Source of the DNA: Streptomyces venezuelae
GTDB taxonomy: Bacteria > Actinomycetota > Actinomycetes > Streptomycetales > Streptomycetaceae
Length of the DNA: 64,000 bases
Direction: 5' to 3'
Assembly (NCBI RefSeq): GCF_008642315.1
Contig: NZ_CP029192.1
Location: forward strand, 6,882,001-6,946,000
Shown here: piece after piece, positions 8,024 to 41,818 of the stretch
Position numbering within the stretch: the first letter of the stretch is position 1
Layout: each line of letters opens with the position of its first letter
Position numbers and translations under genes: made by a program
The notes under the pieces: generated by a model
Told to the model about the DNA's origin: nothing
Databases searched by the model: none
The model's input: the letters and a program-made list of their open reading frames with translations, nothing else

Positions 8024-8779
8024 TCAGAACCCGGCGCGTGATCCGCCGTCCACCGGCACCATGATCCCGGTCAGGTACGAGGCCGCGGGCGAGAGCAGGA
8101 ACGCCGCGGTGCGGCCGAACTCCTGCGGCGTGCCGTAGCGCCGCAGGGGGATGCCCGCCTCGTTGGCGGCGCGGGTGGCCTCCGGGTCGGGGGAGAGGCC
8201 GTCCAGCTGGCGCATGCGGTCGGTGCCGATCCGGCCGGGCAGCACGCCGACCACCCGGATGCCGCGCGGGCCGAGCTCGTCCGCGAGGGACTTGGCGAAC
8301 CCGGCGAGCCCCGGCCGCAGCCCGTTCGAGATCGTGAGGCCCGCGATCGGCTCGTACACCGAACCGGAGAGCACGAAGCCGATGACGCCGCCCTCGCCGA
8401 GCTCCGCGGCCGCGGTCCGCGCGAGGCGCACCGCGCCGAGGAACACCGACTCGAACGCCGCCTGCCACTGCTCGTCGGTGTTGTCCGCGACGAAGCCCGG
8501 CGCGGGCCCGCCGACGCTGATCAGCACGCCGTCGAAGCGGCCGAAGTGCTCACGGGCGGCGGCGACGAGCGCGGCGGCGGAGTCCGGGTCGGCGTTGTCC
8601 GCGACGACACCCACCGCGTTCGGGCCGAGCTCGGCGGCCGCCTCGTCGACCGTCTTCTGCTGACGGCCCGTGACCACGACCTTCGCGCCGTCCGCGACGA
8701 GCTCGCGGGCGGTGGCGTTGCCGAGGCCACGGGTGGCGCCGGTGACTACGTAGACACGGTTTTCCAGTCCAAGATCCAT
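8024..8779 (-). CDS. SDR family oxidoreductase
   Basis: 251 residues with the NAD(P)-binding TGATRGLG at 13-20 and a Rossmann pattern through about residue 190. The usual NNAG is replaced by ISVGGPAPG, and the catalytic Tyr-x3-Lys segment is altered: the region after LSGSVYEPIAGLTISNGLRPGLAGFAKSLADELG lacks a clear Y-x3-K. This places it with the divergent 3-oxoacyl reductase-like SDRs that use a modified active site. It ends MVPVDGGSRAGF, as SDRs do. Last gene of the SURF1-GH15-SDR transcript, four bases after the GH15 gene. The substrate is unknown. Confidence 0.85.
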   Translation of the reverse strand: MDLGLENRVYVVTGATRGLGNATARELVADGAKVVVTGRQQKTVDEAAAELGPNAVGVVADNADPDSAAALVAAAREHFGRFDGVLISVGGPAPGFVADNTDEQWQAAFESVFLGAVRLARTAAAELGEGGVIGFVLSGSVYEPIAGLTISNGLRPGLAGFAKSLADELGPRGIRVVGVLPGRIGTDRMRQLDGLSPDPEATRAANEAGIPLRRYGTPQEFGRTAAFLLSPAASYLTGIMVPVDGGSRAGF

Positions 8780-8783
8780 GGCC

Positions 8784-10709: not shown

Positions 10710-10716
10710 CGAAGCC

Positions 10717-11505
10717 CTAGACGGCTGCGGGCGTCGCTTCCGGAGCCGTGGCTTCCGCGGCCGCCGTGCGGTCGCGCCGCTCCCTGCGGACCAGGACCAC
10801 CCAGCCGATCGGGACGCCCGTGGCGAACAGCCACCACTGGACCGCGTACGCCATGTGCGCGCCGATGCTGCTGTGGTCGGGCTCGCCGATCAGCTCGGGG
10901 GAGCCGCCCTTCGCCTCGGGGGCGGACAGCTCGACGTAGCCGCCGAGGACCTCCTTGCCGAGGGCGTCGGCCTGCTGGCCGCTGCTGATCAGCATGATCT
11001 GACGGTCCGGAAGACCGCGGACGTCCTTGATGCCGCTGGCCGCGGACGTCTCGTCGGCCATGAGGCGGCCGGTGACGGTGATCTCGCCCTTGGGCGGCGC
11101 GGGGATCTTCGGGAAGGCGGTCTGCGGGCCGTCGGCGGGGATCCAGCCCCGGTTGACGAGCAGGACCTTGCCGTCGTCCAGGACGAACGGGGTCAGGACG
11201 TGGAAGCCGACCGCGTCGTCGGAGTTGGTGCGGCGCCGCACCACGACCTCGTGCCGAGGGTCGAACGTGCCCTTGGCGCTCACCCGGCGGTAGAGGTCCT
11301 CCTTGGGCACCTCGTGGCCGGGCGAGGTGAGCTTCTCGGCCGGTACCGGGTCGGCGTTCAGCGCGTCCGAGATCCGCTGGTTCTGGGCGACCCGGTTCTC
11401 GTGGCGGTGCAGCTGCCAGAAGCCGAGCTCGACCATCACGGGGATGAGGACGAGGGCGATGAGGGTGAGGATCACCCACTGCCGGGACAACAGGAAGCGG
11501 TACAC
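10717..11505 (-). CDS. SURF1 family cytochrome oxidase assembly protein
   Basis: 262 residues from the GTG at 11505 (VYRFLLSRQWVILTLIALVLIPVMVELGFWQLHR). Two membrane helices bracket the protein, about residues 10-27 and near 218-236 (AYAVQWWLFATGVPIGWVVLV). Between them is the soluble domain with LVNRGWIP, the SURF1 hallmark. SURF1 proteins help insert haem a into the aa3-type oxidase. The C-terminus is a short Glu/Ala tail. Streptomycete SURF1 genes commonly sit apart from the cta operon, as here. First gene of a minus-strand run continuing into GH15 and SDR. Confidence 0.92.
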   Translation of the reverse strand: MYRFLLSRQWVILTLIALVLIPVMVELGFWQLHRHENRVAQNQRISDALNADPVPAEKLTSPGHEVPKEDLYRRVSAKGTFDPRHEVVVRRRTNSDDAVGFHVLTPFVLDDGKVLLVNRGWIPADGPQTAFPKIPAPPKGEITVTGRLMADETSAASGIKDVRGLPDRQIMLISSGQQADALGKEVLGGYVELSAPEAKGGSPELIGEPDHSSIGAHMAYAVQWWLFATGVPIGWVVLVRRERRDRTAAAEATAPEATPAAV

Positions 11506-11554
11506 CCCACGAAGGTACCTCTCGGGTCGTGGGGTGCCCGGCGGCGGGGTCCGG

Positions 11555-11788
11555 TCAGACGTTGTCGACGATGCCCACCCGCCCCTCCGCGCGCGAGCAG
11601 TGGGCGCCGCAGTACCAGTGGCCCTCCACCTCGACGCCCTGGCCGATGATGCGGCACCGGCAGTGCTCGCAGATGGGCGCCATGCGGTGGATGGCGCAGG
11701 AGAAGCAGTCGAAGACGTGCACCGCCCCTTGGGCGTGCACTTCGAAGGACATGCCGTAGTCGTTTCCGCAGACCTCGCAACGTGCCAT
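11555..11788 (-). CDS. Small Cys/His-rich zinc-ribbon protein ('prokaryotic metallothionein' group)
   Basis: 77 residues with eight cysteines in paired arrays: CEVCGNDY near the start, CFSC, CEHCRC and CGAHC, plus several histidines (HVFDCFSCAIHRM, GHWYCGAHC). This pattern should bind two or more zinc ions. Similar actinobacterial proteins are labelled prokaryotic metallothionein, but the spacing looks more like tandem zinc ribbons than a metal-storage protein. It lies 49 bases upstream of SURF1 on the same strand, with a consensus-poor gap. Confidence 0.8.
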   Translation of the reverse strand: MARCEVCGNDYGMSFEVHAQGAVHVFDCFSCAIHRMAPICEHCRCRIIGQGVEVEGHWYCGAHCSRAEGRVGIVDNV

Positions 11789-11881
11789 GCGCCACAGGGT
11801 GGGACGCCGCGGCGGTGCGGGGCGAGCGGTCGGCGGGCGAGTCGCGCGGCAATCACCCGTCTGACGGTTATGGCTCGGGCG

Positions 11882-12877
11882 CTACGACTCCGTGGCGGGC
11901 GTCACGTCCTGGAGGAGCTGTCCGAACGCCGCCTCGTCGATGACCGGCGTGCCGAACGAGCGGGCCTTGACCGTCTTGGAGGTGCCGGAGTCCGGGTCGT
12001 TGGTGACGAGCAGGCTCGTGAGGCGCGACACACTCGTCGCGATGTGCAGCCCGGCCTCCACCGCGCGGTCCTCCAGGAGTTCACGCTCCACGGAGGTGTC
12101 CCCGGAGAACGCGACCCGCATGCCCTGCTTGAGCGGTTTGCCCGGTTCGTAACGGCCCGGGTTCGGGTACGGGCACGGCGGGCGCTTCCGCGAGGGGCGC
12201 CAACTTCCGGGCCGGTACGACGAGGCGGGCGTCGGGCCCGTCGCCTGGCGGACGATGCGGGGCGCGCCGTCCGACCACTCGGTGAGCGGCCTGCACTCCA
12301 GGAGCGGCAGGCGGACGTTGCCACCGGCCGCCGCCAGCAGACTGGGGCGGAACGCCTCGGCGAGCACGCGCGCGTCGTCCAGGGCGTTGTGCGCGTGGCG
12401 CTGCTCGACGCCGAAGTGCGCGGCCAGGGACTCCAGCTTGTGGTTGGGCAGCGGGAGCGCCAGCTCCTTGGAGAGCGCGATGGTGCACAGGCGTTGGCGC
12501 ACGGGGGCGGTGCGCTCCGCGCGCGCGTACTCCCTGGCGATCATCGACCAGTCGAAGACGGCGTTGTGCGCGACGAGGACGCGGCCGTCGAGGCGGGCCG
12601 CGAACTCCTCGGCGACGTCCTCGAAGAGCGGGGCGTCCGCGAGCATCTCGCTGGTCAGCCCGTGGATCCAGACGGGACCCGGGTCGCGCTGGGGGTTCAC
12701 CAGCGTGTACCAGTGGTCCTCGATGTCGCCCCGGGCGCTCACGCGGTAGACGGCGGCCGACACTATGCGGTCGTCGCGGGCCAGGCCGGTGGTCTCCACG
12801 TCGACGACCGCGTATCCCGTTGGATACGCGGCCGGCCAGGGCACTGCGGACGCTGCGGTCGTGCGGTCTTCGAGCAT
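11882..12877 (-). CDS. DEDDh 3'-5' exonuclease with C-terminal BRCT domain
   Basis: 331 residues. The exonuclease motifs are clear: ExoI VVDVETTGL (about 24-32), ExoII in VLVAHNAVFDWSMI (near 100-113) and ExoIII HAHNALDDARVLAEAF (near 160-175). The C-terminal 85 residues (MRVAFSGDTSVERELLEDRAVEAGLHIATSVSRLTSLLVTND to PVIDEAAFGQLL) form a BRCT domain like that of NAD-dependent ligases. This DnaQ-BRCT fusion is common in actinomycetes and thought to act in DNA repair or proofreading. It is not the replicative epsilon subunit by architecture. The Pro/Arg-rich linker is about 40 residues. Confidence 0.92.
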   Translation of the reverse strand: MLEDRTTAASAVPWPAAYPTGYAVVDVETTGLARDDRIVSAAVYRVSARGDIEDHWYTLVNPQRDPGPVWIHGLTSEMLADAPLFEDVAEEFAARLDGRVLVAHNAVFDWSMIAREYARAERTAPVRQRLCTIALSKELALPLPNHKLESLAAHFGVEQRHAHNALDDARVLAEAFRPSLLAAAGGNVRLPLLECRPLTEWSDGAPRIVRQATGPTPASSYRPGSWRPSRKRPPCPYPNPGRYEPGKPLKQGMRVAFSGDTSVERELLEDRAVEAGLHIATSVSRLTSLLVTNDPDSGTSKTVKARSFGTPVIDEAAFGQLLQDVTPATES

Positions 12878-12908
12878 GGTCCATGAGGATACGGGCCGCG
12901 ACCGACAG

Positions 12909-13544
12909 TCAGGGCGCCGGTCCGAGAAGCCCGGCCACCAGAGCCCTGACGGAGGCGGCGAAAACCGCGTCAGGATCGACGGGTCCCGCGAGCGCGCGGG
13001 CGAGCGCGCCGTCCTGCTCCGCGGCCTGAGCCGTCCACAACTCCTCCTCGCCCGGCCGCTGCACGGGCGCCCGTGCGCGGGCCCGCTCGACGAGGACGTG
13101 TCCGACGACGTGGACCTGGACGGCGCGCACGGCCTCGGCGGCGCGGGCGCCGCGCAGACCCGCCTCGTGGACCTCGTGGACGAGCGTGCGCTGGGCGGGC
13201 AGGAACATCCTTTCCGTCAGGCCGCGTTCGTGGACCATCGCGACGAGGTGCGGGTGGTCGAGGAGCTGGTGGCGCAGGGCGCGGGCCACGGAGGCGACGC
13301 GCTGGACGGGGGTGCGTCCTGTGGCGCGGATCTCGCCGAGGTCGGCGAGGGTGCGCTCGACGAGGGCGTCCAGGAGCGACTCGCGGTTGCCGACGTGCCA
13401 GTAGATGGAGGTGACGGCGGTGCCGAGCTCGGCGGCGAGCGCCCGCATCGTCAGAGCCTGCGGGCCGTGCCGCTTGACGAGGTGCGCGGCGGTGTCGAGC
13501 ACGACGGCCCGGTTCAGTTGCGTGCGCGTCTCTTTACCCTTCAC
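12909..13544 (-). CDS. TetR family transcriptional regulator
   Basis: 211 residues from the GTG at 13544 (VKGKETRTQLNRAVVLDTAAHLVKRHG). The HTH is AALTMRALAAELGTAVTSIYWHVGNRESLLDALVE-like, about residues 33-65, the standard TetR N-terminus. The ligand domain shows no known signature. It is divergently transcribed from the decarboxylase/SDR/amidohydrolase operon, and a perfect TetR-type palindrome lies 10 bases upstream of its start. It is therefore most likely the repressor of that operon and of itself. The inducer is unknown, presumably a pathway substrate or CoA ester. Confidence 0.92.
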   Translation of the reverse strand: MKGKETRTQLNRAVVLDTAAHLVKRHGPQALTMRALAAELGTAVTSIYWHVGNRESLLDALVERTLADLGEIRATGRTPVQRVASVARALRHQLLDHPHLVAMVHERGLTERMFLPAQRTLVHEVHEAGLRGARAAEAVRAVQVHVVGHVLVERARARAPVQRPGEEELWTAQAAEQDGALARALAGPVDPDAVFAASVRALVAGLLGPAP

Positions 13545-13553
13545 GAGTCCTGT

Positions 13554-13568
13554 TGTAACTGTGTTACA
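13554..13568. promoter_or_regulatory. Palindromic operator, probable TetR site
   Basis: TGTAAC-TGT-GTTACA is a perfect 6-3-6 inverted repeat midway between the divergent TetR gene and the catabolic operon. Its length and symmetry suit a TetR dimer. In this GC-rich background an AT-containing perfect repeat is unlikely by chance. Binding is inferred. Confidence 0.75.
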
Positions 13569-13627
13569 GAACCGCCGCAAGTCCCGCCCGCGGACCCCCC
13601 GTCCGCGCCGACGAAGGGTGGTACGAC

Positions 13628-14425
13628 ATGGCACGCATTCGCTACGGAGCACGTGACGAGGCGGAGATCGCCGCCGCACGCACAGCGAGTTCCAAGCTCC
13701 CCGACATCTGGTCCACGGGCGTCGTGGCCGTCTGGGAGAGCGACCCGGACGTGGTCGCCGCGGTCCTCCCGCCGCCGCTGAAGCCCACCGGCCGGCCGCT
13801 GGTGCGGGTGAACATCAGCAAGGTCGACCTGCCCGGCTATCCGCTGGGCGCGGGCTCGGTCGCCGTGGCCGCCGAGCACGGGGGAGTGGAGGGCTGGTAT
13901 CCGCTGGTGATGCCGATGACCCACGAGCGTGCCCTGATCGGCGGGCGCGAGGTGTTCGGGGAGCCGAAGAAGCTCGGCGAGGTGGAGGTCGAGCGGGACG
14001 GCCTGGTGGTACGTGCCCGCCTCGCCCGGCACGGCATCGCCTTCGTGGAGGTGCGGGGCGCGGTCAGCGGCGCCCTGCCGCTGCCCGAGCCGACGCAGAA
14101 GACCGACTTCTACTTCAAGTTCCTGCCCGCGGTGGACGGTTCGGGCTTCGACGCGGACCCCGTGCTCGTGCACTGCGTACGGAACGAGAAGGTCCGCAAG
14201 CTGGAGGCCGTCACCGGGGACGTGGTGCTGCGCGAGTCGATGTACGACCCGGTGGCCGACCTGCCGGTGCGCTCCCTCGTCGAGATCACCATCGGCGAGA
14301 AGACCACCGACCAGCAGGGCCGCGTCGTCGAGCGCGTCAGCGCGCAGTCCCTGCTGCCCTACATCCACCAGCGCTACGACGACCCCGCGCAGATCCTCGA
14401 CGGCCCGCCCGAGGGGAGCGCCTGA
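13628..14425 (+). CDS. Acetoacetate decarboxylase family protein
   Basis: 265 residues, close to the 245-265 of the family. GREVFGEPKKLGEVEVERDG places adjacent lysines at 114-115, matching the Lys pair of acetoacetate decarboxylase in which one forms the Schiff base. A conserved Arg/Glu environment (VNISKVDL, YPLVMPMTHERAL) surrounds it. The reaction may be decarboxylation of a beta-keto acid, though many relatives are non-decarboxylating aldolase/dehydratase-like enzymes. It leads a four-gene operon with SDR and two amidohydrolases, which suggests a ring-cleavage or keto-acid pathway. Confidence 0.9.
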   Translation: MARIRYGARDEAEIAAARTASSKLPDIWSTGVVAVWESDPDVVAAVLPPPLKPTGRPLVRVNISKVDLPGYPLGAGSVAVAAEHGGVEGWYPLVMPMTHERALIGGREVFGEPKKLGEVEVERDGLVVRARLARHGIAFVEVRGAVSGALPLPEPTQKTDFYFKFLPAVDGSGFDADPVLVHCVRNEKVRKLEAVTGDVVLRESMYDPVADLPVRSLVEITIGEKTTDQQGRVVERVSAQSLLPYIHQRYDDPAQILDGPPEGSA

Positions 14426-30761: not shown

Positions 30762-32156
30762 TTATACGCCCGGACTGACCGAACTCATATTGAAATCCGG
30801 GACGCGCAGCGCGGGCATCGCGGCCCGGGTGAAGTAGTCGCCCCACTCGCGCGGCAGCGTCTTCTCCGTACGTCCCGCCTCCGTCGCCCGGCCGAGCAGG
30901 TCCACCGGCGACTCGTTGAACCGGAAGTTGTTGACCTCGCCCACGACCTCGCCGTTCTCCACGAGGTACACGCCGTCCCTGGTCAGCCCCGTGAGCAGCA
31001 GCGTCGCCGGGTCCACCTCGCGGATGTACCAGAGGCAGGTCAGCAGCAGCCCCCGCTCGGTGGCCGCGACCATCTCCTCCAGCGAGCGCTCGCCGCCGCC
31101 GTCCAGGACGAGGTTGTCGACGGCCGGTGTCACCGGGAGCCCCGTCAGCCGCGCGCTGTGCCGGCTGGTGGCGAGGTGAGCGAGCTCACCGGCGCGGATC
31201 CACTCGGTGGCGGACAGCGGCAGACCGTTGTCGAAGACCGACGCGTCGCCGCCCGAGGCGTGCGCGAGCACGAAGGGCGCCGACTCCAGGCCCGGCTCGT
31301 GCGGGTCGCTGCGCAGCGTCAGCGGCAGCTCGGCGATCCGCTCGCCGAGACGTGTGGCGCCGCCGGGCTTGGAGAACACCGTGCGGCCCTCGGCGGCGTC
31401 GCGGGCCGAGGACTGCCACAGCTGGTAGATCAGCAGGTCGGCGACGGCGGTCGGCGGCAGCAGCGTCTCGTACCGCCCCGCGGGCAGGTCGACGCGGCGC
31501 TCCGCCCACCCGAGGCGCCGGGCGAGCTCCGTGTCCAGGGCGGCCGGGTCGACGTCCTTGAAGTCGCGGGTGGCGCGCCCGGCCCACGCGGACCTGGTGC
31601 GGTCGGGCGACTTGGCGTTGAGCTCCAGGGTGCCGTTGGGCTGGTCGTGCCGCAGCCGGAGCCCCGTCGACGTACCGAGATAGCTCGACACGAACTCGTG
31701 GTTCGCGAAGCCGTACAGCTCACGGCCGCCCGCGCGGGCCCGCGCGAACGCCTCTCCGAGGGCCGGGGCGAACTCCGCGAAGACCGCCGATGACGTCTCG
31801 CCGGCCGCCTCGGTGAAGTCGGGGGAGGCGGCCGTGCCGGTCACCAGTGGCTGCGCGTCCTCGGCGGGCCCCGCCCCGCGTGCGGCCTCCTCGGCGGCCC
31901 GCACCAGCGGCTCCAGGTCGTCCGCGGTCACGGCGGACCGCGTCACGACGCCGGAGGCGGTGCCTTCCTTGCCGTCGACGGTCGCGATGACGGTGAGGGT
32001 CCGTCCGCGCGTGACGCCATTGGTGGTCAGCGCGTTGCCCGCCCAGCGCAGGTTCGCCGTCGACTCCTCGTCGGCGATCACGACGCAGCCGTCGGCGGTG
32101 GACAGTTCGAGGGCGCGCTCGACGATCTCGTGCGGCTTGGTGGCGCTGCGGCTCAT
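30762..32156 (-). CDS. tldE: TldE/PmbA-type subunit of the TldD/TldE metalloprotease
   Basis: 464 residues, TldD/PmbA fold. There is no HExxxH motif, as expected for TldE, the partner without the metal site; TldD at 40292-41818 carries it. The TldD/TldE heteromer degrades or processes unfolded peptides in the cytoplasm. The ATG at 32156 overlaps by four bases the stop of a displaced tldD tail (32153), so the native tldD-tldE coupling is still visible although the rest of tldD now lies 8 kb away. How tldE is now transcribed is unclear. See the insertion features. Confidence 0.93.
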   Translation of the reverse strand: MSRSATKPHEIVERALELSTADGCVVIADEESTANLRWAGNALTTNGVTRGRTLTVIATVDGKEGTASGVVTRSAVTADDLEPLVRAAEEAARGAGPAEDAQPLVTGTAASPDFTEAAGETSSAVFAEFAPALGEAFARARAGGRELYGFANHEFVSSYLGTSTGLRLRHDQPNGTLELNAKSPDRTRSAWAGRATRDFKDVDPAALDTELARRLGWAERRVDLPAGRYETLLPPTAVADLLIYQLWQSSARDAAEGRTVFSKPGGATRLGERIAELPLTLRSDPHEPGLESAPFVLAHASGGDASVFDNGLPLSATEWIRAGELAHLATSRHSARLTGLPVTPAVDNLVLDGGGERSLEEMVAATERGLLLTCLWYIREVDPATLLLTGLTRDGVYLVENGEVVGEVNNFRFNESPVDLLGRATEAGRTEKTLPREWGDYFTRAAMPALRVPDFNMSSVSPGV

Positions 32157-32405
32157 CGACCGGCCTCCTGCGTGGTGTTCAGAATGTTCACGCCCCGGAA
32201 CAGGGCGGACGGGCAGCCGTGCGAGACGGCGGCGATCCGGCCGGGCTGGGCCTTGCCGTAGTTGGAGGCGCCACCGAGGACGTACGTCTGCGGACCGCCG
32301 ACCGCGGCCATCGAGCCCCAGAAGCCGGTGGTCGTCGCCCGGTACGCGACGTCGCGCAGCTGCCCGGCGAGGCGGCCGTTCTCGATGCGGTGGAAACGCT
32401 GCCCC
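32153..32405 (-). pseudogene. Displaced native 3' end of tldD
   Basis: 84 codons beginning right at the repeat core and reading TGQRFHRIENGRLAGQLRDV and on to NTTQEAGR and a stop that overlaps the tldE start. It is about 77% identical (65 of 84 residues by eye) to the tail now fused to tldD. It lacks a start codon and a promoter of its own. Codon use is high-GC like the chromosome, unlike the fused tail. It has Tyr in ASNYGK where the fused tail has Cys (FNCGK). This is the original end of tldD, cut off by the island. Confidence 0.85.
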
Positions 32406-32419
32406 GTAAGTTGAAAGTT
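32406..32419. repeat. Direct repeat core, tldE-side junction of the island
   Basis: GTAAGTTGAAAGTT, matching GTAAATTGAAAGTT at 40548-40561 with one mismatch. On the coding strand it spells the codons for Asn-Phe-Gln-Leu-Thr of TldD. It marks where the displaced tail begins. Most likely an attachment-site half. Confidence 0.8.
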
Positions 32420-32863
32420 CACGGTGTGAGCGGAGGGCATACCCCTCTGATCAGTCTTCGTGCAGGTCGGACGGCGTTTCACGATCTACCCTCAATCCCT
32501 GTCATACCGGTTGAGACCGGACTGTGCGGGGTCTGCTGACGTTCGTGACGACCTCGGGGGCGGTCCTCGCCCGGGCTATGGCGAAGATCATCGCTCATGG
32601 GCGTGAGAGGCCTCAAGGCCGTATCCAGGCCACGGGAGGCTACCGCTCCCGCCCGTTCACTGCCGAGGGCGAGCCAGGAGCAGTGCGTCGTGCGGCGGTG
32701 GATCAGGGAACGTTGAAACCTCGCTGAACCAGGCCTACTCCCACATTTCGTACAGGCTGCGCACTCTGGAGTGCTCGCGCTCGACGAGCAAAGGAACAGC
32801 CGAAGGCATGGCGCCACTGCTGGTCCGAGCCGAACAAGCCTCCGAGGGGGAGCGGATCCTGGC
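32420..32863. other. Gene-free left end of the island (444 bp)
   Basis: Overlapping frames on both strands, none with a convincing ribosome-binding site or recognisable motif. It may hold remnants of lost mobility genes or a promoter that now drives tldE. Nothing definite seen. Confidence 0.35.
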
Positions 32864-33685
32864 TCATGGGTTGGTGGGGTCCGGCGGTGGGAGCGGTGGC
32901 AGGTGCAGGCCCTCATGGACGACCGTGTGGGCAAGGTCGCGCACATCCGTCTGGCAGGCGTGGGCATGGGCGCGCAACAGGGCCAGCGCCTGGCCGGCGG
33001 TCACATGGTGGCGGTAGCTGATCATTCCGGTGGCCTGGTGGACGACGGCGTCGGAGTGCAGGAACCACGCGTCGGCCGCCGTGTTCTCGCCGGGGCGCGG
33101 GACGGCCAGGAGGAGGATGTCGGCGGCGTGTACGTGGGCCCGCACGGTCTCCAGGTCCTTGTGGGGCAGGGGGCCGGGCCGGTCGCGGTAGACGGACATG
33201 ACCAGGCCCGGTTGAGGACCGCTGTGGTCGGGTTCGAGGAGGGCACAGAGCGCGAAGGTGGCACGGATGCCGTGGGCGCGGGCCTGTTGGGCGTAGACGG
33301 GCCAGCCGACGGTGGGGTACGGGTCGTCGAGGTCGGGAACGAGAACCGTTCTGCGCTCTTTGAGGGCCTCTACGCACGGGCCTTCCCCAAGGTTGATCTG
33401 CAAGGCTTCGCCTCGCCGGGCGAGAGGGCCCTCGGCAGCCAGCGACACACGTTGGGCAAGGGCGGCGTCCACTGCCAGCGTGAGCCCCACCGAGCAGACG
33501 TATCTCAGTTCCGCTCGGCACGAGTGCACGAGGCTGCTCGACGGGTCGGGGCGATCCACGTGCAGGGCGGCCAGCTCGACAGCCGCCTTCCGGGAGGCTG
33601 TCACGCGACGAGGGTGTAGCCGACGGGGAAGGACTGTGTCTTCTCGAGCGTGGGCATGGCGGTTCTTCCGATGGGTGGCACTCAC
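32864..33685 (-). CDS. GAF-ANTAR regulator (divergent ANTAR), island gene 1
   Basis: Up to 273 residues; the true start may be the GTG at 33604, as the first 27 residues look non-conserved. A GAF domain covers about 45-200 (LGEGPCVEALKERRTVLVPDLDDPYPTVGWP). The ANTAR segment follows: AVVHQATGMISYRHHVTAGQALALLRAHAHACQTDVRDLAHTVV. ANTAR domains bind paired RNA hairpins to prevent termination. Here the usual EQAKG is HQATG, as in two other island members. Ligand and target RNA unknown. Divergent from gene 2. Confidence 0.78.
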   Translation of the reverse strand: MSATHRKNRHAHAREDTVLPRRLHPRRVTASRKAAVELAALHVDRPDPSSSLVHSCRAELRYVCSVGLTLAVDAALAQRVSLAAEGPLARRGEALQINLGEGPCVEALKERRTVLVPDLDDPYPTVGWPVYAQQARAHGIRATFALCALLEPDHSGPQPGLVMSVYRDRPGPLPHKDLETVRAHVHAADILLLAVPRPGENTAADAWFLHSDAVVHQATGMISYRHHVTAGQALALLRAHAHACQTDVRDLAHTVVHEGLHLPPLPPPDPTNP

Positions 33686-33841
33686 CGCCGATGCTGCCCG
33701 TGATCGGAAGCCAATGTCAGGGTTGTCGTACTGGACGAAACCGTCTGCTCGAATACGTGGACAGCCTGGTTTTCCACCCTACGCCTTCTGCCCGGGGCAT
33801 GGGCATGAGGCCCGTCGGCGACGATCCTCCGACCCTTGAAG

Positions 33842-33867
33842 TGCTCGCGACTTACACTGCTCGCGAC
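33842..33867. repeat. Short direct repeat in the divergent GAF-ANTAR promoter region
   Basis: TGCTCGCGAC occurs twice, 16 bases apart, just upstream of the gene at 33900. Spacing of about one and a half helical turns; possible operator. Confidence 0.4.
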
Positions 33868-33899
33868 GGGTTCGGCCGGGCAGGAGAGGGTAGCGGTCC

Positions 33900-34643
33900 A
33901 TGGCTATGGGTGACCTTGCTGCTGTGCTGGAAAGCCTGCGTCCCGCCCCGGGCGGCTGGGACCTGGTCGGCGCCGACGCTGAGGGGTGCGCCCGCGTGCT
34001 GGGCGTCGACGGGGTGGCCGTGTCCGTGACACCGGGCAGCGGGCTGACCGAACTGCTGTGGGCCACGCCCGGCGCCAGCAGGCAGCTGGAGGACTTGCAG
34101 TTCACGCTGGGCCAAGGACCGGGTCCGGAGGCAGCTTCGTCGGGCGCGCCTGTTCTGGTGCCCGATCTGTCGGCCGAGTCCCCCGACCGGTGGCCTGCCC
34201 TGCTGCCCGAGCTGGTGGCCGTGGGGATCGGCGCGGTGTTCTGCCTCCCGCTGCGCCTGGGCAAGGCCAGCCTGGGTGCACTGACGCTGCAACGAGCGAG
34301 GGCCGGACCGCTGGGAAAGTCACCGTTGGCCGATGCGTGGACGGTCACGCACGCGCTGACTGCCGCGCTGGTCGAGGACGGGGAAGCATGGCAAGCCTTC
34401 GCCGAGGCGGAGGAGACTTCGCACTTCTATCGGGCCGCGGTGCACCAAGCCTCCGGAATGATCAGCGTGCAGGCGGGTGTGTCATTGGCCGAGGCTCTGA
34501 TGCGGCTGCGGGCGTACGCCTACCAGCAGGGGCGGCCGTTGCTGGAGGTAGCCGATGACGTGGTGGCCAGGCGGGTGCGCTTTCGCCATGATGATGGAGA
34601 CGAGCCGGGCTTCGTGGCCGGCGGAGGGACTGAAGGGTCATGA
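33900..34643 (+). CDS. GAF-ANTAR regulator, island gene 2
   Basis: 247 residues. GAF domain about 20-165 (VLGVDGVAVSVTPGSGLTELLW, LGQGPGPEAASSGAPVLVPDLSAESPDRWP). ANTAR part AAVHQASGMISVQAGVSLAEALMRLRAYAYQQGRPLLEVADDVV near 185-230. It begins a three-gene plus-strand run and overlaps the next gene by ATGA. Same subfamily as gene 1 by the VHQASGMIS motif. Starts at ATG 33900 or six bases later. Confidence 0.82.
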   Translation: MAMGDLAAVLESLRPAPGGWDLVGADAEGCARVLGVDGVAVSVTPGSGLTELLWATPGASRQLEDLQFTLGQGPGPEAASSGAPVLVPDLSAESPDRWPALLPELVAVGIGAVFCLPLRLGKASLGALTLQRARAGPLGKSPLADAWTVTHALTAALVEDGEAWQAFAEAEETSHFYRAAVHQASGMISVQAGVSLAEALMRLRAYAYQQGRPLLEVADDVVARRVRFRHDDGDEPGFVAGGGTEGS

Positions 34644-35368
34644 CCCGAGAAGAACGCCTGCTGGCAGCCGTCATCGACGCGGTCGACACGCTCGTCGAAG
34701 ACTTCGACCTGATCGACTTCCTGCACACCTTGTGTGATCGCTGCGTCGAACTGCTCGACGTGTCGGCGGTGGGGGTCATGCTGGAAGACCCCGGCGGGAG
34801 CCTGCAGCTGATCGCCGCTTCCGACGAACACACTCGACTCCTGGAACTCTTCGCCCTGCAACACGACCAAGGCCCCTGCGTCGAGTGCCACCGAAGCGGC
34901 ACGGCCCGGTTGAACATCGACCTCGACTCGACGGCCGGGACAGCTCCCTTCCCCGTCTTCGCGGCTCGGGCCCGAGGGACTGGTTTCCTCACGACCCACG
35001 CACTGCCGATGCGGCTGCGCGACACGGTCATCGGTGCGATGAACCTCTTCGACACTCGGGCGCAGGCCCTGTCCGCCGTGGACACGCGTGTCGCCCAGGC
35101 GCTCGCCGACGTGGCGACCATCGCCGTTCTCCAGCATCGCACCGTCGCGCACGCCAACCAGCAACGCGCGCAGATGCGCGCGGCCCTCACCAGCCGTGTC
35201 GTCATCGAACAGGCGAAGGGCATCCTTGCCGAACGCTGGAATACCCACGTGGACAACGCTTTCGACGCCCTGCGCCGCCACGCCCGTACCCACCGGATCG
35301 GGCTGACGCGGGTCTGCCGTCAACTCATCGACGGCGAACTCGACATCGACGCCATAACCCACACTTGA
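34640..35368 (+). CDS. GAF-ANTAR regulator (canonical ANTAR), island gene 3
   Basis: 242 residues, coupled to gene 2. GAF domain about 10-160 (LLDVSAVGVMLEDPGGSLQLIAASDEHTRLLELF, QGPCVECHRSG, MRLRDTVIGAMNLFD). The ANTAR domain is textbook: ALTSRVVIEQAKGILAERWNTHVDNAFDALRRHARTHRIGLTRVCRQLIDG (about 183-232). Similar in plan to gene 5. Probably an RNA-binding antiterminator whose GAF domain senses a ligand or a partner protein. Confidence 0.86.
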   Translation: MTREERLLAAVIDAVDTLVEDFDLIDFLHTLCDRCVELLDVSAVGVMLEDPGGSLQLIAASDEHTRLLELFALQHDQGPCVECHRSGTARLNIDLDSTAGTAPFPVFAARARGTGFLTTHALPMRLRDTVIGAMNLFDTRAQALSAVDTRVAQALADVATIAVLQHRTVAHANQQRAQMRAALTSRVVIEQAKGILAERWNTHVDNAFDALRRHARTHRIGLTRVCRQLIDGELDIDAITHT

Positions 35369-35451
35369 TCGCAACCGACTTTCTGTGCCGCACGAACAGG
35401 ACCACCTGTCCCGCCGCCCCGCACACACCGCTACCTCTGGAGTGGCACTCG

Positions 35452-36138
35452 ATGGATGACGACGGGCATATCGACGCCTGGCGCCGGACCAGCGACGCCG
35501 AAGACGGCGTCACTCTTGCCGCCGCCGCCCGAGCCTGCGTGGCGGACCTCGGAATTGACAGCCTCGGGGTGAGCCTGGTCGTCGCCGGCGAACTGCGCGT
35601 CATGGGCCACGCCACCGACGAGCGTGCCCGGCTCCTGGAGGACGCCCAGCTCACCACCGGGGAAGGTCCCTGCACCGACGCTTACGTGCAGCGCACCCTC
35701 ATCGAAGAGGCAGATCTGCACCGGGCGTTCGGCCGATGGCCCGCCTTCACCCAAACTGCGGGCGAGCAGGAGATGCGCTCGGTGACGGCTCTGCCCCTGA
35801 CCATCGGGCACCTGTGCATCGGTGCGGTGGACCTCTACCGCACCGCACCCGGCCTTCTCACCGCCCGGCACAAGTCCCGAGCCGGCTCCTACGCCCGCAT
35901 TCTCGCCCTGCTCGCCTTGGACGAGTACCCCCACTTGCTGACAACCGAGTACCGGCTCACTCGGCCCGGCCCACAGGGTTATCCGCCCAGCGTCCACATG
36001 GCGGCCGGTGTCCTTGCCGAGATGAACCATTTGTCCCCGGACGACGCCCTGGCACGCATGCGCGCCCACGCCTTCCGCCACGGCCAGCCCCTTCACCAGA
36101 CCGCCGACCACGTTTTGGCCCACCACACTCTGGACTGA
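35452..36138 (+). CDS. GAF-ANTAR regulator (divergent ANTAR), island gene 4
   Basis: 228 residues from the ATG at 35452, with GGAGTGG upstream; the longer frame from 34885 is a shadow of gene 3. GAF domain about 15-160 (LGIDSLGVSLVVAGELRVMGHATDERARLLEDAQLTTGEGPCTDAYV, LTIGHLCIGAVDLYRTAPG). The C-terminus SVHMAAGVLAEMNHLSPDDALARMRAHAFRHGQPLHQTADHVL is an ANTAR of the same divergent type as genes 1 and 2. 83 bases after gene 3, same strand. Confidence 0.8.
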   Translation: MDDDGHIDAWRRTSDAEDGVTLAAAARACVADLGIDSLGVSLVVAGELRVMGHATDERARLLEDAQLTTGEGPCTDAYVQRTLIEEADLHRAFGRWPAFTQTAGEQEMRSVTALPLTIGHLCIGAVDLYRTAPGLLTARHKSRAGSYARILALLALDEYPHLLTTEYRLTRPGPQGYPPSVHMAAGVLAEMNHLSPDDALARMRAHAFRHGQPLHQTADHVLAHHTLD

Positions 36139-36398
36139 CCTTTGTTGAGGCCGGTCCCTCGCAACACTTCTCGCGCGTGGCGGTCAGCCTCTCTCGCAGC
36201 GGTCTGGTCTGAGCGGGTCCTCCGTCGTCTCCCCGACGCGGTGGTGAGGACCGATCCCGCAGCGGAGCGAGCCTGCGGCGCACACCCACAAGCGCCGGGT
36301 CCGCCTTCCTCTCCCGCGGAAGCGGAGACCGGCCACGGTACGAGCTGCAAGGCGGTTGCAGTCGGCGGAGCGACCAGCACTTCTCAAACGACTGGCTG

Positions 36399-37199
36399 TC
36401 AGGGCTTGGCGGGGACTGTGCCGGCTTCCGGGGGTGGAGGCAGGACGAAGTTTCCGTTGACGATGTCGCGCGCCAGGTCGACCAGGAGCAGGTGGTGATG
36501 GCGAGCGTGCGCACGGAGACGATGGAAGGCGGTGTCGGGGTCGACTGCGTGGCGGGCGCAGAGGAAGCCCTTGGCCTGTTCGATGGCGGTGCGGCTGTTC
36601 AGGGCCGACTGGAGTTGGGCTCGTACCGTGCGGTGCTGGTCGAGGGTGGTCTGCTGGAGCAGGGAAATGGCGGTGGCGTCGGCCAGTGCCCGGGCCAGGT
36701 CGCGGTCGGCTTGCTGGAGGGGGCCGGGAGTGCGTTGGAAGAGGTTCAGCACGCCTATGGTTTCGGTACGCAGCCGGATCGGGGTGGCGTGGACGGATGT
36801 GTAGCCGGAGCGGTGCGCGCGGGCACTGAAGCGCGGCCACCGGGGTGAGAGCGCGGCGCCGATGATGTGATCGACCGGGGCGGACTGGTGGAAGGCGCTG
36901 TGACAGGGGCCTTCGCTGGCATCGAGCTCGAAGAGCTCGACCAGGCGGACGCGTTCGGAGGAGGCGGCGACCAGACGCAGTGGGCCACTGGGCGCGGCGA
37001 GCATGACGCCGGCATCACCGATGTCGAGCAGTTCCATGCAGTGTTCGGCGACGCGGTAGAAGAACTCGGCGGGATCGAAGTCATCGACCAGAGTGTCGGC
37101 CAAGTTGATCAGTGCGGCGGTGATCCGGGCCTCGCGCGGTAATCGGGATGGCCCGTTCACCGAGGGGCGGTCGGGCGGCGGAACGAATGGATTGGACAT
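36399..37199 (-). CDS. GAF-ANTAR regulator (canonical ANTAR), island gene 5
   Basis: 266 residues. GAF domain about 25-180 (LLDIGDAGVMLAAPSGPLRLVAASSERVRLVELFELDASEGPCHSAFHQS, PIRLRTETIGVLNLF). ANTAR: LQSALNSRTAIEQAKGFLCARHAVDPDTAFHRLRAHARHHHLLLVDLARDIVNG (about 195-250). Closest in plan to gene 3. Convergent with gene 4 across a 260-bp gap with no clear gene. Confidence 0.85.
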   Translation of the reverse strand: MSNPFVPPPDRPSVNGPSRLPREARITAALINLADTLVDDFDPAEFFYRVAEHCMELLDIGDAGVMLAAPSGPLRLVAASSERVRLVELFELDASEGPCHSAFHQSAPVDHIIGAALSPRWPRFSARAHRSGYTSVHATPIRLRTETIGVLNLFQRTPGPLQQADRDLARALADATAISLLQQTTLDQHRTVRAQLQSALNSRTAIEQAKGFLCARHAVDPDTAFHRLRAHARHHHLLLVDLARDIVNGNFVLPPPPEAGTVPAKP

Positions 37200-37383
37200 G
37201 CAGGCCTCCGGTTCGAGGGGCCAGCGACCAGGGCCGGAAGCACACTACGGGGGCTGGGTGGAATACCACCCGGCGAGGTGCTGACCTAAGAGGAAACGCT
37301 ACCTTCCGGCAAGTGTGAAAACCAGGCAGTCAGGGCCCGCCGTCAGGCGATACGCGCGGTGCAACCCGGAGGTGTCCGGTCCG

Positions 37384-37493
37384 CCCACCTTCTCCATGGA
37401 ACCCCGGAACTGAGGGGTTGTTCCCTGATGGGCAACGTCCCGGAGCTGCCCGACAAGGCGGCCGTTCCGGATCTCGTATGCCCTCTGCTGAGT
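37384..37493 (-). pseudogene. Decayed second copy of the island-type tldD tail
   Basis: 110 bp aligning without gaps to 40440-40549 with three differences (107 of 110). Read on the minus strand it gives QQRAYEIRNGRLVGQL, then AHQGTTPQFRGSMEKVGG: the changes include Tyr to His and Trp to Arg, and homology stops after the VGG. Homology also stops within two bases of the repeat core: the core itself is absent. A remnant of an earlier integration, or a duplication, of the same element type. Confidence 0.8.
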
Positions 37494-37595
37494 GGTGCTC
37501 TTTGGCCTGTAGAACCCTCTGAACGCTGATGAACGGAGGCCCCGAGTCTTGGACGGAGAGTTCAACGGAAAGTGACCTCCGGGCAGCTGTGCGGG

Positions 37596-39239
37596 TCATG
37601 CGGGGGTTCCGGTGAGGGTGCCGTCGTGGAGTTCCAGCCGTCGGGTGATTCTCACGGTCTGGAGCAGGCGGCGGTCGTGGGAGACGAGTAGCAGGGTGCC
37701 GTTGTAGGAGTCGAGGGCGGATTCGAGTTGTTCGATGGCCGGCAGGTCGAGGTGGTTGGTGGGCTCGTCCAGCACCAGCAGATTCACCCCGCGCCCTTGT
37801 AGCAGCGCGAGTGCGGCCCGGGTCCTTTCACCGGGGGACAGGCTGCTGGCTGGGCGCAGGACCTGGTCGGGGCCCAGGCCGAACTTCGCCAGCAGGGTGC
37901 GGACTTCGGCGGGCTCCGTTTCGGGGACAGCGGCCCGGAAGGCGTCCAGGAGGGTGTCGGCGCCGTGGAACAGGGCCCGGGCCTGGTCGATCTCGCCGAT
38001 CACTACCCCCGAGCCGAGTGCCTGGCGACCGGCGCTCAGGGGGATACGGCCCAGGAGGGCGCCGAGCAGCGTCGACTTGCCGGTGCCGTTCGCGCCGGTG
38101 ATCGCGACACGGTCCGCCCAGTCGATCTGCAGCGTCACAGGCCCCAGCGTGAACCCGCCGCGCTGGACGGTGGCTTCGTGCAGCGTGGCGACGATGGCGC
38201 CGGAGCGGGGCGCGGCGGCGATCTGCATGCGCAGCTGCCATTCCTTGCGCGGCTCCTCCACCTCCTCCAGGCGCTCGATGAGGCGTTCGGCCTGCTTGGC
38301 CCGGGCGGCCAGGTTCTCGCTGTTCTCCATCCGGCCGCTGCGGGCGAACTTGTTGTTGTCCCGGCTGCGGCGCTGCGCGGTGCGCACTCCCTTCTCCGCC
38401 CAGGAGCGGTGCATGTTCGCCCGGTCCTGCAAGGCGGCCTTGCGCTCGGCGTACTCCTCGTACTGGGCGCGGGCCTGATGGCGGGCGCGTTCTGCTTCCT
38501 GGAGGTAGGTCGTGTATCCACCGCCGTAGTGGCGCACCTGTTGCTGGGCGCGGTCGAGTTCGAGGACCTGGGTGACGGTCCGGGTGAGGAACTCGCGGTC
38601 GTGGCTGACCACGACCGTGCCCGCGCGCAGCCCGGTCACGAACTGCTCCAGCTGTTCCAGGCCGGCCAGGTCGAGATCGTTGGTGGGCTCGTCCAGCAGA
38701 AAGACGTCGAAGCGTGACAGGAGCAGCGAGGCCAGCTGTGCGCGGGCGGCCTGCCCGCCGGACAGCGACGTCATGGCCTGTTCCAGCCCGATGCCCAGCC
38801 CGAGCGTGGCGGTCACGTGTTCGGCGCGCTCTGGAAGGTCTGCTGCGCCCAGGCTCAGCCACTGCTGCAGGCTCGTGTCGTAGGCCTCCGCGGCGCCGGC
38901 GACGCCGTCGGCCAGCGCCTGGGAGGCGGTGTCCAGGGCTCGTTCGGCGGCGGCGACGCCGGTGCGGCGGGCCAGGAAGGCGGAGACGCTCTCGCCCGTG
39001 CGCCGGTCCGCCTCCTGGGGCAGGTACCCGATGGTCGCACCGGCCGGGGCCAGCTGTACCTGTCCTTGTTCGGGCCGGTCGAGACCGGCCAGGAGGCGGA
39101 GCAGGGTGGACTTGCCCGCTCCGTTGGTTCCGACGAGGCCGATCACCTCTCCTGGGGGTACGACCAGGTCGAGGCCGGAGAAGAGGGGGAGGTCGCCGTG
39201 GCCTGCGGCGAGATTCCTGGCGGTCAGGGTTGCGGACAT
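37596..39239 (-). CDS. ABC-F ATPase, island-borne (possible antibiotic-resistance type)
   Basis: 547 residues, two cassettes: LVGTNGAGKSTLLRLLAGL near 35-53, signature LSGGQAARAQL near 160 and DEPTNDLD near 185; second GANGTGKSTLLGALLG near 365, signature LSPGERTRAAL and DEPTNHLDLPAIEQLE. The linker is long, basic and coiled (ARHQARAQYEEYAERKAALQ and on to ENSENLAARAKQAERLIERLEEV). No membrane helices. ABC-F proteins of this length and on mobile DNA can protect ribosomes from drugs. The substrate spectrum cannot be read from sequence. Distinct from the chromosomal ABC-F at 1781. Confidence 0.88.
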   Translation of the reverse strand: MSATLTARNLAAGHGDLPLFSGLDLVVPPGEVIGLVGTNGAGKSTLLRLLAGLDRPEQGQVQLAPAGATIGYLPQEADRRTGESVSAFLARRTGVAAAERALDTASQALADGVAGAAEAYDTSLQQWLSLGAADLPERAEHVTATLGLGIGLEQAMTSLSGGQAARAQLASLLLSRFDVFLLDEPTNDLDLAGLEQLEQFVTGLRAGTVVVSHDREFLTRTVTQVLELDRAQQQVRHYGGGYTTYLQEAERARHQARAQYEEYAERKAALQDRANMHRSWAEKGVRTAQRRSRDNNKFARSGRMENSENLAARAKQAERLIERLEEVEEPRKEWQLRMQIAAAPRSGAIVATLHEATVQRGGFTLGPVTLQIDWADRVAITGANGTGKSTLLGALLGRIPLSAGRQALGSGVVIGEIDQARALFHGADTLLDAFRAAVPETEPAEVRTLLAKFGLGPDQVLRPASSLSPGERTRAALALLQGRGVNLLVLDEPTNHLDLPAIEQLESALDSYNGTLLLVSHDRRLLQTVRITRRLELHDGTLTGTPA

Positions 39240-39598
39240 GCGGTCGCCTACCGGAAAGGTCGGTCACCTGTGGTGACAAGTGTGCGAGGGAGGTACGCGC
39301 TCGGCATCACGACGGCAGGCGGGAGTGCACGGCACCAGGAGCCGCTGAGGCGGGTCAGGGGCCCGGATGGCCTCCCCCGACGCACGATGGGCCAAGAGGG
39401 GGCGCTGAGTCGTGCACGACCACCACCGTCGGCACAGCCGAAGGCGGCAGGGCAGCACAGGAGCACTGTGCCGGCTACAGGGGCACGAACCTCAGATGCG
39501 CAAAGTCCACCTCGATCGGCGACAACAGGACCACTCACCACGGTACACATCTGCTGCGGCCCTGTGCGACCTCGATTCCCCGGGACCGCCGTCTTCAC
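39240..39598. other. Gene-free stretch upstream of the island ABC-F (359 bp)
   Basis: Divergent interval between the ABC-F gene and the MFS remnant. GTCACC-TGT-GGTGAC (about 39263-39277), near the ABC-F start, is a short perfect hairpin that could be an operator or part of a leader. No gene with a ribosome-binding site seen. Confidence 0.35.
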
Positions 39599-40140
39599 GT
39601 GGCCTCGCTGCTGTGCGGGATCGCCGTGGACCCGGGCTTCCTGGTGGCGGCGCGGGCCGCACAGCTGGTCTTCGGTCTGATGCTCGGTGTGTTTCTGCTG
39701 ACCTTGGTCGACCGCCACCAGCGACGCGTCCCCCAAGCCGGCACGATCCTGATCGCCCTCAGCCTGACCGGTTACCAGCTGCTGATCTTCAGCCAGGGCA
39801 CCCAACTGCCGTTCGGGCCGCCGCCGCACCGATGCTCCCTATTGGGCTCGGGCTGGGCGCGATCGGCGCCCAACTGTCCGGACTCACCCTCAGCCGGGTC
39901 CACAACGAAGACGCCGGATCCGCCGCTGGTCTGTTCAACACCGCCATGCAGTCGGGCACCACCCTCGGACTGGCCATGGCTTCCTTCGTCTTCTTCAACC
40001 ACGCCCCCGCAGGCAGCCACGGCACCACCGTGACCACTGCCTTCGCAGGGAGCATCTGGTACGTCATCACGGCCCTGACCGCGATGCGGGCCCTCATGTT
40101 CACCCTGACCGAACCGATCAAGGTCCCTGACCGACGGTGA
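39599..40140 (+). pseudogene. Frameshifted C-terminal remnant of an MFS (DHA2-type) exporter
   Basis: The first part (from GTG 39599) reads two or three hydrophobic helices, including AARAAQLVFGLMLGVFLLTLVDRHQ and ILIALSLTGYQLLIFSQG. Near 39825 the meaning moves to another frame: PMLPIGLGLGAIGAQLSGLTL, EDAGSAAGLFNTAMQSGTTLGLAMASFVFF and a final helix. The pattern GLFNTAMQSGTTLGLA is typical of EmrB/QacA exporters. The N-terminal half of the transporter is absent. A decayed drug exporter, close to the tldD-side island border. Confidence 0.72.
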
Positions 40141-40291
40141 AACCCGCCCACAGCTGGAGCCGTATCTCTCCAGGGAGGCTGGACGGGACAGACACAAAGA
40201 ACGGCACCAGGGGGGGCAGCCGGTCCTGCGTTGATGGCCCCCCGTTGGTGGCCGTTTCGGTCCTGACAGCAGGGACCTTGGCGGGCAATGA

Positions 40292-41818
40292 TCAGGAGCG
40301 TCCCGACTCGGTCGAAGTGTTCAGGATGTTCACGTTCCGGAACAACGCGGACGGGCATCCATGGGAGACCGCGGCGATCTGACCCGGCTGCGCCTTTCCG
40401 CAGTTGAAGGCTCCTCCCAGTACATACGTCTGGGGCCCTCCCACCTTCTCCATGGAACCCCAGAACTGAGGGGTTGTTCCCTGATAGGCAACATCCCGGA
40501 GCTGCCCGACAAGGCGGCCGTTCCGGATCTCGTATGCCCTCTGCTGAGTAAATTGAAAGTTGTACCTCTGCATGTCGATCGACCACGACCGGTCCCCGAC
40601 CACATAGATCCCGCGGTCCACGCCCGCGATCAGATCCTCCGTGGGCAGCCCGCCGGGGTCCGGCTGGAGCGAGACGTTCGCCATGCGCTGCACCGGGACG
40701 TGGCCGGGGGAGTCGGCGTACGCGCAGCCGTTGGAGCGCTGGAAACCGGTGAGCTTCGCGATGCGCCGGTCCAGCTGGTAGCCGACCAGCGTGCCGTCCT
40801 TGACCAGGTCCCAGGACTGTCCTGCCACGCCCTCGTCGTCGTACCCGATCGTCGCGAGCCCGTGCTCGGCCGTCCGGTCGCCCGTCACGTTCATCAGCGA
40901 GGAGCCGTACGCCAGCTTGCCCAGCTGGTCGAAGGTGGCGAAGGACGTGCCCGCGTACGCGGCCTCGTAGCCGAGCGCGCGGTCCAGCTCCGTGGCGTGG
41001 CCGATGGACTCGTGGATCGTCAGCCACAGGTTCGACGGATCGACGACGAGGTCGTACGAACCCGCCCGGACGCTCGGCGCCCGCATCTTCTCCGCCAAAA
41101 GCTCCGGGATCTCGGCGAGCTCCGCCGCCCAGTCCCAGCCCGTCCCCGTGAGGTACTCCCAGCCGCGGCCGACCGGCGGTGCGATCGTCCGCATCGAGTC
41201 GAACTCTCCGCTCGACGCGTCGACGGCCACCGCCGTCAGCTGCGGATGCAGCCGCACACGCTGCTGCGTGGTCGTGGTGCCCGCCGTGTCCGCGTAGAAC
41301 TTGTTCTCGTGCACGGTCATCAGGGACGCGTCGACGTGCGTGACCCCGTCGGCGGCGAGCAGCCGCGCGCTCCAGTCGGCGAGCAGCCCCGCCTTCTCCT
41401 CGTCCGGCACGGAGAACGGGTCGATCTCGTACGAGGAGACCCACGTCTTGTCCGCGTGCACCGGCTCGTCCGCGAGCTCCACGCGCTCGGTCGACCCGGC
41501 CGCCTTGATGACCTGTGCGGACAGTTTCGCCATGGCCACGGCCTGCGAGGCGACGCGCGCCGCCGCGTCCATCGTCATGTCGACACCGGAGGCGAAGCCC
41601 CAGGTGCCGCCGTGCACCACACGGACCGCGTACCCGAGGTCCGTGGCGTCGGAGCTGCCCGCCGGCTTGGCGTCGCGCAGCAGCCAGGACGCGCTGCGCA
41701 CCCGCTCCAGGCGGAAGTCCGCGTGGTCGGCGCCGAGCGCCCGCGCGCGGGCCAGCGCGGCGTCGGCGAGAGCCCGCAGCGGCAGCGCCGTGAAGGCTTC
41801 ATCGATGGAATGAGGCAC
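40292..41818 (-). CDS. tldD: TldD metalloprotease subunit, carrying a replaced C-terminus
   Basis: 508 residues. The metal motif HESIGHATELDRALG (HExxxH) lies near residues 260-275. The last 86 codons after the Asn-Phe-Gln core come from the island. In this part A/T-ending codons (gca, gtt, gga, aca, gta) are frequent, unlike the 5' part. It contains FNCGKAQPGQ, whose Cys aligns with the third metal ligand of E. coli TldD; the displaced native tail has Tyr there. The reading frame is complete, so TldD is probably active. It is now separated from tldE by 8.1 kb. Confidence 0.93.
   Translation of the reverse strand: MPHSIDEAFTALPLRALADAALARARALGADHADFRLERVRSASWLLRDAKPAGSSDATDLGYAVRVVHGGTWGFASGVDMTMDAAARVASQAVAMAKLSAQVIKAAGSTERVELADEPVHADKTWVSSYEIDPFSVPDEEKAGLLADWSARLLAADGVTHVDASLMTVHENKFYADTAGTTTTQQRVRLHPQLTAVAVDASSGEFDSMRTIAPPVGRGWEYLTGTGWDWAAELAEIPELLAEKMRAPSVRAGSYDLVVDPSNLWLTIHESIGHATELDRALGYEAAYAGTSFATFDQLGKLAYGSSLMNVTGDRTAEHGLATIGYDDEGVAGQSWDLVKDGTLVGYQLDRRIAKLTGFQRSNGCAYADSPGHVPVQRMANVSLQPDPGGLPTEDLIAGVDRGIYVVGDRSWSIDMQRYNFQFTQQRAYEIRNGRLVGQLRDVAYQGTTPQFWGSMEKVGGPQTYVLGGAFNCGKAQPGQIAAVSHGCPSALFRNVNILNTSTESGRS
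40548..40561. repeat. Direct repeat core, tldD-side junction of the island
   Basis: GTAAATTGAAAGTT, inside the tldD reading frame at the codons for Asn-Phe-Gln-Phe-Thr. Upstream of it (in tldD direction) codon use is chromosomal; downstream it is island-like. Partner of 32406-32419. Confidence 0.8.

Follow-up and report, generated by a model that had tools for sequence, protein, structure and literature searches.

Genomic islands often reconstitute the genes into which they insert (PMC12884075). The attachment site of integrative elements, attP, usually supplies the target gene with a replacement sequence, icd being a named case (PMC10111431). The insertion sites of actinomycete integrative and conjugative elements (AICEs) comprise 36 transfer RNA (tRNA) genes, 14 protein genes, with rlmN named, and one intergenic site, and accretion and decay at one site have been described for these elements (PMC9513070). 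AICEs with a tyrosine integrase reside mostly in tRNA genes (PMC3218068). In this study, we focused on an 8.1-kb island that splits tldD in a 64,000-nucleotide stretch of Streptomyces venezuelae (assembly GCF_008642315.1, contig NZ_CP029192.1, positions 6,882,001 to 6,946,000), referred to here as the window. The products of tldD and the adjoining tldE form a heterodimer, as demonstrated in E. coli (PMC5810440). The island is very likely the remnant of a tldD-specific integrative element whose attP would have carried both a replacement 3' end and a leader for the displaced part of the gene; we give this explanation as a whole a probability of roughly 0.9. A tRNA gene as the integration target was excluded, as no tRNA was found in the window. 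The locus is composed of the following features.

30762-32156, minus strand: tldE
32153-32419, minus strand: displaced native 3' end of tldD, carrying AGGAGG ahead of tldE; Tyr codon TAC at 32258-32260
32406-32419, minus strand: attR core, AACTTTCAACTTAC
32420-32482, minus strand: leader of element origin; its GTG start and 20 codons run in frame into the displaced tail
32483-32570, minus strand: conserved part of the attP arm, ahead of the leader; GAGGG, resembling a ribosome-binding site, at 32489-32493
40292-40561, minus strand: acquired 3' end of tldD at attL, 89 codons and a stop; metal-ligand Cys codon TGC at 40400-40402
40548-40561, minus strand: attL core, AACTTTCAATTTAC
40562-41818, minus strand: host part of tldD, 419 codons including the HExxxH region

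The whole hybrid tldD reading frame (40292-41818, minus strand, 508 amino acids) passes through AACTTTCAATTTAC into the 89-codon foreign tail. The second tldD 3' end is contained in an open reading frame at 32153-32482 on the same strand, and its TGA overlaps the ATG of tldE (ATGA). The original prediction, which had been made from the sequence of the window alone, described a split tldD with a second tail about 8 kb away whose stop overlaps tldE, and the reading frames and the 8,142-bp distance between the cores bear this out. It had also placed a 14-bp repeat at the break; the repeat exists but is imperfect, since the attR and attL cores are alike at 13 of 14 positions. The predicted 86 codons of island-type sequence past the repeat are near our count of 89, which starts at the Asn codon. 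The leader at 32420-32482 and a further, truncated tail copy at 37378-37493 had escaped the prediction. The two tails pair over 263 nt at 73% identity, with the cores inside the pairing and the same spacing of 8142. This arrangement is not a product of chance, because 22 genomes, the window's among them, have it or its remnant at the same codon, and because the tail and the leader sit together at an attP-like place in a phage.

We propose that the island is the no longer mobile remainder of a site-specific integrative element and probably stems from two copies stacked on each other. The tyrosine integrase of this element would recombine tldD where it encodes Asn-Phe-Gln, within a core some 11-14 bp long. 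One piece of attP would provide the replacement 3' end and thereby a full-length TldD at attL, third metal-ligand Cys included, and the other arm would bring a leader, made up of a ribosome-binding site and an NTG start with 20 more codons. Joined at attR to the displaced native tail in the same frame, this leader would let ribosomes again cross the old 3' end into tldE. That the operon is repaired at both ends in this way by the phage and by RepSA-type elements in common, and that the foreign tail alone keeps the third metal ligand in the window, is in our judgment a little better than an even bet.

Which of the two tails is native was assessed among 295 Streptomyces genomes, 283 of which gave a tldD match. 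From these we took 39 uninterrupted loci as a non-random sample of the 283, namely the 27 with the best scores among those lacking an element, and 12 from genomes with a second match. Two loci were dropped before counting: L111, a distant tldD/tldE pair, and L106 (genome G140), where the assembled tldD tail carries a frameshift (9847-10111), real or an assembly error, though the genome has no element. All 39 uninterrupted tails are closer in DNA to the displaced tail of the window than to the new one (0.803-0.909 vs 0.705-0.761), and all 39 overlap tldE via ATGA. The core of the empty site is AACTTCCAGTTCAC in 36 of the 39, and a short core is common to both junctions and the empty sites. In a tree of 72 tails, from which L142-L146 were left out, the displaced tail of the window is the sister of L005, its nearest uninterrupted relative (support 99/80). 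The acquired tail of the window belongs to a separate clade that holds 17 of the 20 attL or attP tails (100/99). These comparisons establish, at the level of sequence, that the acquired tail is foreign. The tail beside tldE had been predicted to be the native one, and the genes of the other Streptomyces genomes agree, all 39 ending in a native-type tail that overlaps tldE. No tail of the type found at 40292 lies beside tldE in any of the uninterrupted loci, and empty sites exist.

A query with the tail against a phage collection of 50,697 records matched only Streptomyces phage Success, in two records. In this phage (NC_073472) the tail is part of gp10, annotated as a 'metalloprotease', and lies about 60 bp from a tyrosine recombinase gene. 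The annotated gp10 (6456-6788 of locus L004) consists of the attP leader and the tldD tail and is not a separate protease. Success shares this module with the tldD elements, and its integrase and those of the best RepSA elements have 85-88% identity. Unlike these elements, Success is a tailed phage of 57 kb whose genome includes genes for terminase, capsid and tail. No relative was confirmed when a collection of viral contigs was scanned with the tail and with the integrase. The same tail query against plasmids gave TldD-family matches in eight records, which cover 86-99% of the 137-residue query. A literature search on phage Success returned no paper on the phage among the matches listed.

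Elements or remnants occupy the tldD site in 22 genomes including the window, each counted once, and the junction predicted for the window thus recurs at the same codon elsewhere. Any two of these genomes are at most 95% identical over the stretches compared. Loci L115, L116 and L121 come from the same genomes as L100, L108 and L102 (identical over 900 nt), and L142 is the other end of L119, and L146 that of L108; G503 and G557 are distinct from the genomes of L120 and L118 (75-84% identity in the main matches). A single scan of named genomes turned up 10 loci, in S. phaeofaciens, S. griseofuscus, S. lasiicapitis, S. griseocarneus, S. caeruleatus, Actinacidiphila bryophytorum and four Streptomyces sp.; three of the 10 belong to genomes already counted. 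Matches to the Success integrase at E <= 1e-30 were present in 62 of 392 Streptomyces genomes and were mostly distant. Full-length integrases 85-88% identical to that of Success lie beside the replaced tldD tail in G104, G277, G326 and G333. A 69% identical copy is found in G053, and pieces (81-84%) in G036, G080, G146 and G366. All nine of these copies or pieces lie at a tldD that has either a replaced tail or a second one. Both the site and, among the relatives, the integrase are thus shared, and the integrase found in the relatives would be the enzyme that recombines at tldD. The leader stretch occurs in 11 of the 392 Streptomyces genomes, the window's included, and in 8 of 293 genomes of a sample of the order, in three of nine genera; four of these eight are shared with the Streptomyces sample.

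The measured core-to-core lengths range from 1,680 to 8,142 bp (14 elements), and the element of A. bryophytorum, assembled from the overlapping L119 and L142, reaches 15,271 bp. The fullest elements, of about 6-15 kb, carry an integrase gene (int), an excisionase gene (xis; TIGR01764) and RepSA (PF20199), and many have a helix-turn-helix gene. These three genes are all whole in L099, L107, L112, L114, L117, L118 and L119, with parts broken or missing in others. L118 also has FtsK_SpoIIIE and GntR genes. The fuller relatives are pSAM2-type elements. A transfer gene was not recognized in most relatives in a scan that covered part of their open reading frames, and within the same scope int, Rep and an FtsK/SpoIIIE-type gene were recognized together in L118 only. 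The displaced native tail has been deleted in L113 (S. griseofuscus, 8298-11578), which keeps only its last codons, and in L110 (G053, 9413-11235); both loci own the tldD tail of the element alone. L145 (G503, 8335-13809) belongs to another genus of the family and has two leader-tail copies about 5 kb apart, with a PIN-domain gene by the inner one.

A second tail could also have arisen by tandem duplication of the host tldD 3' end or by homologous exchange, without site-specific integration. The lack of an integrase in the island agrees with such an origin, and so does L101 (G137), whose attL tail (8874-8608) is nearly identical to its own displaced tail (2776-2513), as would result from gene conversion of the foreign tail to the native sequence, which indicates that tails do exchange. 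However, integrase-bearing elements sit at the same codon, the phage carries the same leader and tail, and the tail tree separates the two types. Duplication without integration is highly improbable on these grounds and was rejected. The prediction of integration inside tldD with replacement of its tail is upheld by the elements with int at the same site, by the Success tail beside an integrase, and by the 39 uninterrupted tails.

The zinc ligands of E. coli TldD are the two histidines of HExxxH and Cys454, and Cys454 and Lys456 tether a clamp (PMC5810440). Cys454 aligns with the CGK of the tail, at residue 473 of the window protein. The hybrid protein therefore has the TldD domains and the third metal ligand. 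This Cys is present in 20 of 20 attL tails, in all 39 uninterrupted tails and in 17 of 18 displaced tails that adjoin tldE, while the displaced tail of the window has Tyr in its place. The new tails are constrained, with a ratio of nonsynonymous to synonymous substitution rates (dN/dS, calculated without L142-L146) of 0.02-0.20 in 10 pairs. Some displaced tails are strictly kept as well (0-0.09 in L099/L100, L102/L107, L112/L114 and L101/L109); others are relaxed (0.20 in L105/L103, 0.51-0.76 in L104). For the displaced tail of the window the ratio is 0.24 against L005 and 0.09-0.17 against seven more distant tails, compared with 0.05-0.09 when L005 itself is set against the same seven. In the window genome only the acquired tail probably works, as the displaced one carries Tyr instead of the third metal-ligand Cys. 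The island retains neither int nor xis nor rep and the native tail lacks this ligand, so the host probably now depends on the acquired tail. TldD with the new tail is predicted to be active.

Every copy carries, on its attR side and upstream of the core, an NTG start followed by 20 more codons; GAGGG precedes the start in most. We compared 21 leader copies: 18 that adjoin tldE, two internal and one in the phage. The start is GTG in 16, ATG in three and TTG in two. The frame of the tail is open in all 21, even where nucleotide identity to the window's leader falls to 56%, and the other two frames contain stops in 21 and 18 of the copies. The leader and the displaced tail form a 109-residue reading frame in 18 of the 18 copies adjoining tldE, 17 of which end in ATGA and one in CTGATG. 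The tail is frameshifted in the internal copy of L104 and intact in that of L145. A promoter ahead of the leader was sought by eye in the alignment and was not established. The leader would, on this evidence, keep tldE translated.

Several observations weigh against this account. The leader peptide is weakly constrained, with a ratio of nonsynonymous to synonymous differences (pN/pS) of 0.83 in 15 copies, and its DNA occupies the place expected for integrase arm sites. Conservation extends about 100 nt upstream of the start and takes in a GGTCGACAC-like motif that is found on both arms, where it probably forms the arm repeats of the integrase. The tldE gene has an AGGAGG of its own just ahead of it and persists intact where the leader is missing, in L110 and L113. 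Simulation gave no significance to the lack of stops in decaying displaced tails (P 0.53-0.77), and it thus failed to reveal selection for read-through. The leader might accordingly be mere attP-arm DNA with integrase or excisionase sites and an incidental frame, with tldE using its own ribosome-binding site; integration itself would still be real. We consider this a serious possibility, somewhat short of an even chance. It does not readily account for a frame that stays open in every copy despite sequence divergence while the other frames are mostly closed, or for starts that vary and yet are always NTG. Beyond the leader, three of the 20 element tails lie outside the element clade, L119 and L120 just outside it and L101 elsewhere; the relaxation of the displaced tail of the window is modest; and the window island has no recognizable integrase, so that its past mobility is known only by likeness.

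Apart from the junctions, the island consists of cargo and broken sequences.

32864-33685, minus strand: ANTAR gene with a weak GAF match, cargo (Pfam)
33900-34643, plus strand: GAF/ANTAR gene, cargo (Pfam)
34640-35368, plus strand: GAF/ANTAR gene, cargo (Pfam)
35515-36117, plus strand: GAF/ANTAR domains of the fourth such gene (in open reading frame 34885-36138), cargo (Pfam)
36399-37199, minus strand: GAF/ANTAR gene, cargo (Pfam)
37344-37493, minus strand: truncated third copy of the tldD tail, with no core and no leader
37596-39239, minus strand: ABC-F-type gene, cargo (NF000355, 372.3 bits, just under the cut-off of 380)
39412-40140, plus strand: open reading frame without a Pfam match, transporter-like by eye only, probably broken

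The third tail copy is flanked by the GAF/ANTAR cluster and the ABC-F gene; over 37378-37493 it is 96% identical to 40434-40549 of the acquired tail. As its homology starts right after the core, a second element or a rearrangement at the core edge is likely. This middle copy, like the extra leader-tail copies in L104 and L145, suggests that the island is probably two stacked elements. No int, xis or rep was found in it, nor any integrase adjoining attL as in the relatives, and integrase-like genes elsewhere in the window genome share only 22-29% identity with that of Success. The copy has plainly decayed, and because the island has no integrase that could be found we regard it as a relic, probably immobile and fixed. 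Five ANTAR-domain genes stand in a row on both strands (32864-37199) as cargo of a tldD element. The GAF/ANTAR DNA has only partial matches (64-78%), with any match in 48 of 150 genomes, the window's own counted. By DNA comparison, the island has nothing in common with other elements, cargo included, beyond the leader stretch (to about 32570), the middle tail and 51 nt in the ABC-F gene.

The window island might descend from a tailed prophage like Success instead of a RepSA-type element, as its tail clusters with the tails of Success, L103, L105, L109 and L110 and is separated from most RepSA-element tails (96/98). We hold this to be unlikely. No structural, replication or other phage gene was recognized in the larger open reading frames of the island with Pfam, the DNA comparison with two loci covering Success gives the leader and tail only, and the core-to-core length of 8.1 kb is close to that of RepSA elements.

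Compared with elements of the icd type, as the cited papers describe them, the tldD elements are alike in that the target stays whole through a 3' end borne on attP and the integrase gene adjoins that end. They differ in that the target is the first gene of a two-gene unit and that attP also brings a start and a leader for the displaced fragment. With AICEs of the pSAM2 type, so far as the same sources describe them, the fullest tldD relatives share int, xis and RepSA, and L118 also the FtsK/SpoIIIE-type and GntR genes. Unlike these AICEs, the tldD elements sit in a protein gene and most are 5-8 kb long without a recognized transfer gene, and in the window copy none of int, xis, RepSA, FtsK/SpoIIIE-type or GntR genes was found. 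The word tldD is absent from the main texts of PMC10111431, PMC12884075, PMC9513070 and PMC3218068. A literature search of titles and abstracts found no report of a Streptomyces element that integrates in tldD. Nor did it turn up an account of a leader that serves a displaced fragment, most subscription papers lying outside its reach. Replacement of the 3' end of a target gene was thus already known, and the tldD target and the repair at the 5' side were not found in these searches.

The tldD elements explain the odd annotation of Success gp10 and the extra short pieces of tldD in genomes. Their integrase is a candidate for a new att site in Streptomyces genetics. The locus suggests how an element may enter the middle of a two-gene unit that encodes the TldD/TldE heterodimer and leave both subunits readable, and the leader would provide a simple rule for integration sites inside operons. 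It also suggests how a foreign protein segment with an active-site residue may become fixed in its host.

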